Assembly: GCA_003569165.1 (NCBI GenBank)
Contig: BGOI01000002.1
Location: forward strand, 1-64,000
Direction of reading: 5' to 3'
DNA length: 64,000 nucleotides
Source of the DNA: Opitutia bacterium
GTDB lineage: Bacteria; Verrucomicrobiota; Verrucomicrobiia; Opitutales; UBA953
The notes below the pieces were generated by a model. That model was given only the letters and a program-made list of their open reading frames with translations. It was not told where the DNA came from and made no database searches. Positions 3,683-44,630 of this stretch are shown piece by piece. Position 1 is the first letter of the stretch, and each line of letters starts with the position of its first letter. Position numbers and translations under genes: made by a program.

Positions 3683-3714
3683 ATGGGTGTGGCGGATGCC
3701 TCGCCGACGCGTCC

Positions 3715-4479
3715 CTACCTCAACGCGACGAGGGCTAGGTCGGCGATGAGCCAGGTCCAAAGGGCGAAGGCGATGAGGCCGGCGATGACAAGGCCGAAGA
3801 GGTAGGCGGGAATCCCGAGGAGGATGATACGAAGGGCGCCGAGAGAGTGCGCGCGGATGAGCGCCGCCAGGAGCCAGGTGTGCGCGACGAGCCGGATGAG
3901 AAGAAAGCCGGCGAGCAGCCAGACGCTAATGGAGAGTATGGAGTATCGAGTATTGAGTGTGGTGAGGATAAGGCCGGCCCAGGCGAGCGTGGCGAGATCG
4001 GCGCAGAGATGGTTAAGGAGGAACGCACGTGCGGTGCCCTTCCAGCCGCCGGGCGCGCCTCCGAGCAGGAGGACGCCGTGCACGAGGCCGAAGCCGAGGA
4101 GAAGAAAGGCCGCCGGCAGGACGAGCGTTAGCAGAACTGCCCAGGTCGTCATGAAGGCTTCTCCGATTAATGCATAGGGCCCAACGTACTGGTTAATTAA
4201 CTGGATGACGGGCTGGGCTAACCCACCCATCCACTCCTGAGGGATGGCCTTCAGGGCTTGTTCCTTCGCGAGGTCGCTGCCGAGGCTGATGGCGCGCGTG
4301 AGAGGGTTGTGGGAGGTGAGGAGAGCGAAGCCGCCGAACCAAGCGGCGGGAAGCGCCGCGAGAGACCAGAGAGGCAGAGTGGTGGCGTTAGCTGGCCGGT
4401 TGACAAGTTGATCAGGGTGCAATGGGGAACTGCTGGCATGGTGAACTGCTGCGAAGCGAGGTAAGGGTAAACAGTGCAA
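3715..4479 (-). CDS. multi-pass membrane protein (Yip1-like); N-terminus uncertain because it reads through repeat sequence
   Basis: Several hydrophobic helices; the stop codon lies in CCCTACC of a repeat. Confidence 0.55.
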   Translation of the reverse strand: MHCLPLPRFAAVHHASSSPLHPDQLVNRPANATTLPLWSLAALPAAWFGGFALLTSHNPLTRAISLGSDLAKEQALKAIPQEWMGGLAQPVIQLINQYVGPYALIGEAFMTTWAVLLTLVLPAAFLLLGFGLVHGVLLLGGAPGGWKGTARAFLLNHLCADLATLAWAGLILTTLNTRYSILSISVWLLAGFLLIRLVAHTWLLAALIRAHSLGALRIILLGIPAYLFGLVIAGLIAFALWTWLIADLALVALR

Positions 4480-4694: not shown

Positions 4695-4812
4695 GGTAGG
4701 GCTGACCATCCTTGGTCGGCCGGGCGGTCGAGCAGGGATGCTCGACCCTACCAGAGACAGAGGACAGCACGTGGTGCTGTCCCACCCTCGATGCAGCGGA
4801 CGCATCCCTACC
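4695..4812. repeat. CCCTACC-flanked variable hairpin array
   Basis: Hairpins 4701-4720, 4726-4747 and 4762-4782 plus a truncated unit. Confidence 0.85.
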
Positions 4813-7120: not shown

Positions 7121-7332
7121 CAGGAGGTAGGGGCGCGACGGTGTCGCGACCGAGGGGATGAGGGTCGAGGGCGGACGCGTCGCCGACGCGTCCCTACCTG
7201 CGCGGCGGAGCTGCGAGGGGTTGGCGGTTAGCGGTTGGCGGTTGGCGGTTGGGAGCGCAAAGAGGCGGCTAGGGCAGCACGCGGTGCTGCCCCTACCTTA
7301 GAGACAGCGGATGCGATGTCATCGCATCCCTA
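7121..7332. repeat. CCCTACC-flanked variable hairpin array plus GCGGTTGGCGGTT short tandem repeats
   Basis: Hairpins 7134-7148, 7173-7193, 7272-7292 and 7309-7329. Confidence 0.85.
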
Positions 7333-7335
7333 CCT

Positions 7336-8993: not shown

Positions 8994-9056
8994 TGTCGTG
9001 ACGCGGTCCCGACCCTACCCGAAAGAATGTCATCCATGCAGTCATCGATTCAGCCC
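8994..9056. repeat. intergenic repeat TGTCGTGACGCGGTCCCGACCCTACCC and ATTCAGCCCTC modules
   Basis: Identical 27-mer at 31207-31233. Confidence 0.8.
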
Positions 9057-10681: not shown

Positions 10682-10847
10682 GGGGTGAAGTTATGAAAGT
10701 GAAACGCCGAGGTGGAGGAGAAGTTGAAGAATGGAGGCAGGAAAATTTTCAGGAAAATACGGGGCTTAATGGAGGGTTAAGGTTGCGCGGTGCAAGGCGC
10801 CGCGCGGGGATCTGCTGGCACGGGGAACGGCTGCGAAGCAAGGTAGG

Positions 10848-10938
10848 GCCGACCATCCTTGGTCGGCCGCGGCCAAGCAGGGATGCTTGGCCCTACCCGA
10901 GGCACATGAGGACAGTACGTGGTGCTGTCCCTACCTTA
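10848..10938. repeat. CCCTACC-flanked variable hairpin array
   Basis: Hairpins 10848-10867, 10871-10892 and 10910-10930; CCCTACCTTA includes the stop codon of the neighbouring gene. Confidence 0.85.
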
Positions 10939-21184: not shown

Positions 21185-21492
21185 GGAGGTAGGGGCACGA
21201 TTTATCGTGCACTCCTCATGCGGAGGGCGCGGCGAAGCCACGCCCCTACCTTAGTTCGCCCTGCGGCGAACGGTAGGGCTGACCATCCTTGGTCGGCCGA
21301 GCGGTCGAGCAGGGATGCTCGACCCTACCTAGATACAGCGGACGGCTCGGAGAGCCGTCCCTACCATGGGAGACAGACGGATGCGATGCCATCGCATCCC
21401 TACCCGGGCGGCTGACCAAGGGTGGTCAGCCCTACCGAGATACAGAGGACAGCACGTGGTGCTGTCCCTACCTAGAGACAGCGGACGCGTCG
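21185..21492. repeat. long CCCTACC-flanked variable hairpin array (about 9 hairpins)
   Basis: Hairpins 21195-21210, 21278-21297, 21303-21324, 21340-21360, 21379-21399, 21410-21431, 21447-21467 and others. Confidence 0.9.
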
Positions 21493-31002: not shown

Positions 31003-31300
31003 ACACGATTCGAGGACACGAGGGCCGGTGGGCACGAGGACTCGTAGCACAAATGAGAGGCACGGAGGCTCAGAGGCTCGGTTGACCAGAGGGATTCCTC
31101 GCTCAAGGGGAGACCGGAGACCGGATGATTGGCTGGGGGATATGTCCTCAGCTAACATTCCAGTTTCCAGTCTCCCTTGGTTTTGCGTGAAGGCAATTGC
31201 AGGCACTGTCGTGACGCGGTCCCGACCCTACCCATTGCATCTCATCTATTCAGCCCTCGATGCAGTCCTCTATGCTGTCATCGACTCAGTCATCTACCCT
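31003..31300. repeat. mosaic of dispersed intergenic repeats
   Basis: 27-mer shared with 8994-9020; AGACCGGAGACCGGATGATTGGCTGGGG shared with 44471-44498. Confidence 0.75.
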
Positions 31301-44405: not shown

Positions 44406-44509
44406 GGCCGCGACTAGTTGATCAGTTGACCAGTGGGCCGGTTGACAAGGATGCCCAAGCATCAAAGGGAAACCGGAGACCGGATGATTGGCTGGGGTAT
44501 CTTGGGTAG

Positions 44510-44630
44510 GGAGGCGATTGCCATCGCCTCCGTTCGAGACCGCAGCCGCAAAGTCGTCGGGTCTTAGCTAAGTCGAATAGACAAGTGAATCATCTGGCGA
44601 ACGGACGTGATAGCAATCACGTCCCTACCC
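44510..44630. repeat. CCCTACC-flanked variable hairpins
   Basis: Hairpins 44510-44531 (GGAGGCGAT-TGCC-ATCGCCTCC) and 44603-44624 (GGACGTGAT-AGCA-ATCACGTCC-CTACCC). Confidence 0.85.

Follow-up and report, generated by a model that had tools for sequence, protein, structure and literature searches.

Recurring GTAG hairpins between the genes of an Opitutia bacterium are very probably REP elements of several RAYT lineages

The hairpin words that recur between the genes of an Opitutia bacterium (assembly GCA_003569165.1, genome G000) are very probably REP elements, small mobile DNA palindromes, which are probably copied by REP-type transposases (RAYTs) of the same genome. For the explanation as a whole, in which each stem word belongs to one RAYT lineage, we estimate a probability of about 0.92. 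The window, i.e., the whole stretch of 64,000 nucleotides that was analysed (positions 1 to 64,000 of contig BGOI01000002.1), holds the elements listed below. Words that a sequence-only reading had placed at 4695-4812, 7272-7292, and 10848-10930 were all recovered there when the sequence was re-inspected.

3694-3718, minus strand: decayed REP, GGACGCGTC-GGC-GAGGCATCC (element catalogue).
4696-4721, plus strand: REP class A, GTAG-GGCTGACCA-TCCT-TGGTCGGCC, hairpin at 4700-4721, T.G wobble at pair 4; REPIN half.
4726-4751, minus strand: REP class B, GTAG-GGTCGAGCA-TCCC-TGCTCGACC, on the plus strand GGTCGAGCA-GGGA-TGCTCGACC at 4726-4747; other REPIN half.
4762-4786, minus strand: REP class C, GGACAGCAC-CAC-GTGCTGTCC, on the plus strand GGACAGCAC-GTG-GTGCTGTCC at 4762-4782; tag decayed to GGTG.
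4788-4812, minus strand: probable decayed REP, GTAG-GGATGCGTCCGCTGCATC, class D-like (read from the sequence).
7127-7151, plus strand: REP with an imperfect stem, GTAG-GGGCGCGAC-GGT-GTCGCGACC (element catalogue).
7173-7197, minus strand: REP, GTAG-GGACGCGTC-GGC-GACGCGTCC (element catalogue).
7272-7296, minus strand: REP, GTAG-GGGCAGCAC-CGC-GTGCTGCCC, on the plus strand GGGCAGCAC-GCG-GTGCTGCCC at 7272-7292; the word also flanks RAYT C3:71723.
7309-7333, minus strand: REP class D, GTAG-GGATGCGAT-GAC-ATCGCATCC; the word also flanks a RAYT in genome G064 (L188).
8994-9018, minus strand: imperfect REP-like repeat, GTAG-GGTCGGGAC-CGC-GTCACGACA, with a further copy at 31207-31231.
10843-10868, plus strand: REP class A, GTAG-GGCCGACCA-TCCT-TGGTCGGCC, GGCCGACCA at 10847-10868; REPIN half.
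10871-10896, minus strand: REP class B dialect, GTAG-GGCCAAGCA-TCCC-TGCTTGGCC, on the plus strand GGCCAAGCA-GGGA-TGCTTGGCC at 10871-10892; other REPIN half.
10910-10934, minus strand: REP class C copy, GGACAGTAC-GTG-GTGCTGTCC at 10910-10930, one A.C mismatch on the GTAG strand.
21189-21249, no single strand: REPIN of GTAG-GGGCACGAT-TT (plus) and GTAG-GGGCGTGGC-TTC (minus); an identical pair flanks a RAYT in genome G068 (L201).
21273-21328, no single strand: REPIN of class A (plus) and class B (minus), arranged like 4696-4751.
21340-21471, minus strand: four head-to-tail REPs of four classes, GGACGGCTC-TCC, GGATGCGAT-GGC, GGCTGACCA-CCCT, and GGACAGCAC-CAC.
44506-44628, no single strand: REP pair with GTAG outside, GTAG-GGAGGCGAT-TGCC (plus) and GTAG-GGACGTGAT-TGCT (minus).

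The unit, read on the reverse strand, consists of GTAG, a 9-bp stem that starts with GG and ends with CC, and a loop of 2-4 nt, whereby the CTACC string shared by the words is the complement of GGTAG. The catalogue covers 445 kb in 20 stretches of an incomplete assembly (86.6%), selected around matches, and in this sequence 226 of the 823 CTACC sites carried a 9-bp stem with a score of 7 or more, compared to 6-29 for four control anchors. Altogether, 246 elements with at least seven Watson-Crick pairs were found in ~447 kb, including a few chance matches. Genome-wide, TGCTNNNNCCTACC gave 60 matches and its reversed control 5, while the perfect GTAG-GGACAGCAC word gave 36 matches and its control none. 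When copies were chosen by the inner stem and loop only, the GTAG tag was present in 42/44 class A and 46/47 class B copies of this genome, and in 103/115 and 120/123 copies, respectively, of other genomes. According to gene calls from a simple codon-usage script rather than a full gene finder, 181 elements are intergenic and 14 lie inside called genes, in DNA that is ~82% coding. Gaps between convergent genes have the highest density of elements (90 in 22 kb), and divergent gaps hold few (8 in 17 kb). Next to co-directional genes, 172 elements are sense and 137 antisense, which is close to a random orientation. REPs of several lineages occur together in mixed clusters between genes.

Many of the elements are arranged as inverted pairs. 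Pairs with GTAG outside outnumber those with GTAG inside by 70 to 7 in this genome and by 178 to 25 in other genomes, the commonest gap between the two REPs being 2 bp, and there are fixed partner stems, CCA-TCCT (class A) with GCA-TCCC (class B). Both class A/B pairs near the words described above (4696-4751 and 10843-10896) form two clean hairpins as single-stranded DNA, with z = -5.8 for the former. Such pairs of two inverted REPs correspond to REPINs, which would replicate as one unit.

Further repeats were observed between genes. The palindrome TGTCGTGACGCGGTCCCGACC-CTACC of 8994-9018 and 31207-31231 has 13 exact copies in the 445 kb, with identical mismatches in all of them; no RAYT flanked by this palindrome was identified. 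Repeats that have no GTAG hairpin include GGGGAACTGCTGGCA...GAACTGCTGCGAAGCA with four copies (window positions 4424, 7057, 8773, and 10806), GTGCAAAGGTGCAA...GTGCAAAAGTGCAAAGG with two copies that are 98% alike (4474 and 8874), GAGTATGGAGTATCGAGTAT (3934 and 8818), and TTGGCGGTTAGCGG (7217). Strings resembling them are also present between genes in relatives.

The genome encodes four RAYTs matching the NCBIfam model NF047646 (REP_Tyr_transpos) with E-values of 1e-18 to 2e-22. Against the model cut-off of 80 bits, C1:465330 scores 80.1 and the other three score 68-77; most RAYTs of this set lie just under the cut-off. As the Pfam model PF01797 had yielded one RAYT, where NF047646 yields four, the idea of one RAYT serving many words was abandoned. 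The RAYT at C3:76288-76665, cognate to the class C REP at 4762-4786, has GTAG-GGACAGCAC on either side, the one at C3:71723-72091 has GTAG-GGGCAGCAC as its flanking word, and the one at C1:465330-465704 lies within an array of class A/B words (CCA-TCCT/GCA-TCCC). Thus, for each of the three kinds of words in question, the genome itself encodes a transposase. The fourth RAYT, at C32:11596-11970, carries GGTCAGCAC/GGTCGGCAC pairs on both sides. About 30 more RAYTs of the genus are likewise flanked by their REP word, and stems of the classes in the run at 21340-21471 flank RAYTs in the genus. Around the third gene (G000:C1:465052-465927), class B REPs stand in tandem on both sides with a period of ~40 bp.

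At the protein level, the HUH motif (PDHxH), the FDHR motif, and Tyr-x(3)-NPxR are invariant among 17 RAYT sequences. A PDB sequence search returned as top match 4ER8, the E. coli TnpA-REP (a RAYT with its REP hairpin), with an E-value of 1e-16, and the same entry was the top fold match (E 2e-8, TM 0.71, rmsd 2.1) of an AlphaFold model (pLDDT 89). Judged by this model, the predicted proteins combine the HUH motif and a single catalytic tyrosine in a Y1 transposase fold, as is characteristic of RAYTs. A second set of Y1 genes exists in the genus (L158-L162, L164, L168-L170, L174, L176); these are mostly longer (open frames of ~250-335 aa) and show no GTAG doublets flanking the gene. Among the long Y1 transposases of the genus (300+ aa), most were without adjoining hairpins of the GTAG type.

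In order to find out whether pairing is maintained, copies selected by the loop and inner pairs only were aligned, and paired and unpaired changes of the arms were counted. For class B of this genome, 250 cells were unchanged, 21 were double and thus compensated, 1 was G.T, 3 were A.C, and 7 were other; for class A the numbers were 210, 22, 20, 3, and 9, respectively. The Watson-Crick fraction was 0.961 for class B, with shuffles reaching at most 0.869, and 0.879 for class A, with shuffles of at most 0.792; it exceeded the shuffles in the well-populated classes, whereby the shuffles ignore relatedness, so that the copy number overstates the independent events. The earlier statement that both arms changed together was correct and is general. 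Double changes are common across copies. The words which had been described as related versions need to be separated: GGTCGAGCA and GGCCAAGCA are indeed dialects within one lineage, whereas GGACAGCAC and GGGCAGCAC are not alleles of one element but REPs of two different transposases, C3:76288 and C3:71723. The G-U wobble proposed for 10910-10930 exists on the plus strand only and is an A.C mismatch on the GTAG strand; this copy folds poorly as DNA (-4.8 vs. -9.8 kcal/mol).

Which nucleic acid has to fold can be judged from the imperfect pairs, because a strand under constraint to fold can accommodate G.T but not A.C. On the GTAG strand, G.T outnumbers A.C by 149 to 21 copies and by 42 to 14 independent cases (p = 0.0002). 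Where the GTAG strand is sense to co-directional neighbours, the G.T : A.C ratio is 35:5 for copies and 18:5 for distinct words, and where it is antisense the ratio is 34:1 and 16:1, respectively; distinct words were counted too because the class A wobble at pair 4 may be one event that was copied often. As the bias is equally present in antisense elements, the fold appears to be kept on single-stranded DNA and not on gene-sense RNA, and the arms would change together because a DNA strand has to fold. Such a strand-specific bias would be explained if the RAYT recognises GTAG DNA in single-stranded form, as is known for TnpA-REP (PMC8266576). The excess of G.T could partly stem from cytosine deamination on an exposed strand instead of selection.

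The sequence-only reading had taken the coordinated changes as the mark of an RNA-level structure. Its maintained pairing holds, but RNA is not the best reading, because REPs flank RAYTs and the G.T bias occurs regardless of gene sense. If the hairpins were RNA elements, such as mRNA stabilisers, 3' end hairpins, or attenuators, the paired changes would keep a transcript structure. This would suit the concentration in convergent gaps and the rarity in divergent ones, as well as elements that often begin 1-5 bp past a stop codon, and Di Nocera et al. (2013; PMC3733652) interpreted the GT pairs of GTAG repeats as hinting at an RNA function. However, a transcript would read the 34:1 bias of the antisense elements as A.C, so that the bias should be inverted there; the elements have no fixed orientation, one member of each inverted pair is always antisense, and orthologous gaps are without elements or contain unrelated words. 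Moreover, an Rfam scan of the window yielded two tRNAs only and no match to the hairpins. We therefore regard an RNA function as unlikely. It is more improbable still that the arms are paired by mutation only, i.e., by template switching within the palindrome (quasi-palindrome correction) in the absence of selection. This process would likewise produce doubly changed as well as perfect stems and could play a part, but alone it predicts equal numbers of G.T and A.C intermediates, in disagreement with the 42:14 observed, and it leaves the GTAG tag, the flanking of RAYTs, and the agreement between RAYT and stem unexplained. That the palindromes arose by chance, the genome being GC-rich, or that they form a CRISPR-like array, has a negligible probability. 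Some clusters do show a period of ~37-40 bp (C1:465052-465263), yet the repeats differ by lineage and occur in both orientations, and chance is ruled out by the counts given above, with 226 stems against 6-29 at the control anchors and 0-5 matches for the reversed patterns.

The REP reading is consistent with the turnover at orthologous sites. The site 10843-10934 lies directly behind the stop codon of a conserved gene. Of the 29 genomes in which the orthologous site is readable, 20 have REPs there, in numerous different combinations, and 9 have none. In front of the same next gene, the gap measures 254 nt with three REPs here, compared to 213-215 nt without any REP in four relatives. At the loci examined downstream of the gene at window position 10936 (L238-L267), REPs of different species often lie 1-5 bp past the upstream stop codon, as if this position were a preferred landing site. 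Dialects are clustered along the genome, 24 of 30 neighbours being alike compared to 10.8 expected; such regional dialects of one REP would suggest short-range copying or gene conversion. In a scan of GTDB, the hairpin set was found mainly in Opitutae assemblies, many of them apparently freshwater by name. The class B word was also seen in assemblies labelled Abditibacteriales, Polynucleobacter, Aquidulcis, and Akkermansia (L101, L037, L078, L038, L050), which might reflect mis-binned contigs, wrong labels, or transfer.

Stem word and transposase also agree across the genus. The 37 RAYT genes fall into 14 stem classes, which need 13 changes on the RAYT tree, the minimum, whereas none of 200 shuffles of the classes on this tree was as low as 13. 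Most short RAYTs across the genus have a flanking stem word of their own. The density of GGACAGCAC is 9.6 per Mb in genomes with its RAYT and 3.1 per Mb in those without, i.e., ~3-fold (p = 6e-5, uncorrected for ancestry), although several genomes in which this RAYT was not found have many copies (e.g., 31 in G007 and 29 in G062). It might be, and we propose this tentatively, that stem word and transposase co-diversify in the genus, with at least a dozen REP/RAYT lineages that share one GTAG tag and many of which exist side by side in the gaps. If this is true, the RAYTs would read specific stem pairs beyond tag and shape, and the genus would constitute a natural data set for reading the RAYT-REP recognition code.

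A possible course of events is as follows. The GTAG strand would become single-stranded and the stem would fold, whereupon the RAYT may bind the GTAG tag together with the folded stem, cut beside the stem with its single tyrosine, and copy or move the REP or REPIN into a different gap between genes. Recognition would be weakened by a change in one arm and restored by a change in the second arm or by a tolerated G.T pair, so that paired changes are seen in the copies that survive. In the long run, a stem word and its RAYT would diverge together, which would give rise to the hairpin "dictionary."

The mobile-DNA reading thus replaces the RNA reading of these hairpins, and the comparison of G.T and A.C by strand and by transcription sense offers a test by which constraint on single-stranded DNA and constraint on RNA can be told apart in palindromic repeats. 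With its many RAYT/REP pairs, the genus could help to clarify how RAYTs recognise hairpins, above all those of perfect-palindrome REPs; the most interesting aspect is the number of lineages that would be co-diverging within it. In practice, the repeats probably fragment metagenome assemblies, and they can be mistaken for regulatory RNA. In a search limited to a collection of open-access papers, no description of the REP set of this genus was found.

The kind of element itself, i.e., GTAG REPs with compensated stems, REPINs, and RAYTs, is already known, whereby the set in this host is unusually rich. Di Nocera et al. (2013; PMC3733652) describe GTAG REPs in species including Opitutus terrae (Verrucomicrobia). 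One genome can hold several of these families, which have GT pairs, head-head dimers, and sub-families whose stems differ by complementary changes. The hairpins analysed here share with those families these features and the GTAG tag, a stem of 6-13 bp, a short loop, the intergenic location, and the head-head dimers; they differ from what is given there in that the host is a freshwater Opitutae genus, about a dozen words are each tied to a RAYT clade of their own, and the strand bias of imperfect pairs was measured. For Pseudomonas fluorescens, Bertels and Rainey (2011; PMC3116915) described REPINs and RAYTs, with compensatory changes in the spacer hairpin. There, too, an inverted doublet is the unit and is tied to a specific RAYT flanked by the same REP; in the present set, by contrast, the two REPs are most often separated by 2 bp and each form a perfect 9-bp hairpin of their own, usually with two different stems that are specific to their classes. 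The E. coli TnpA-REP (4ER8), which acts on the GTAG strand only and whose REP stems need a bulge (PMC8266576), has the HUH motif and single tyrosine in common with the present RAYTs and heads their PDB matches in both sequence and fold, with only ~22% identity over the aligned fold, whereas the stems found here are perfect and, among the group 2/3 REPtrons (PMC8266576), nearer to those of group 3. IS200/IS605 elements (IS608, ISDra2) have a Y1 HUH fold and subterminal single-strand hairpins at both ends as well, but the RAYT genes studied here are bordered by REPs that also occur dispersed throughout the genome, and their HMM and fold match to these elements is weaker than that to TnpA-REP.
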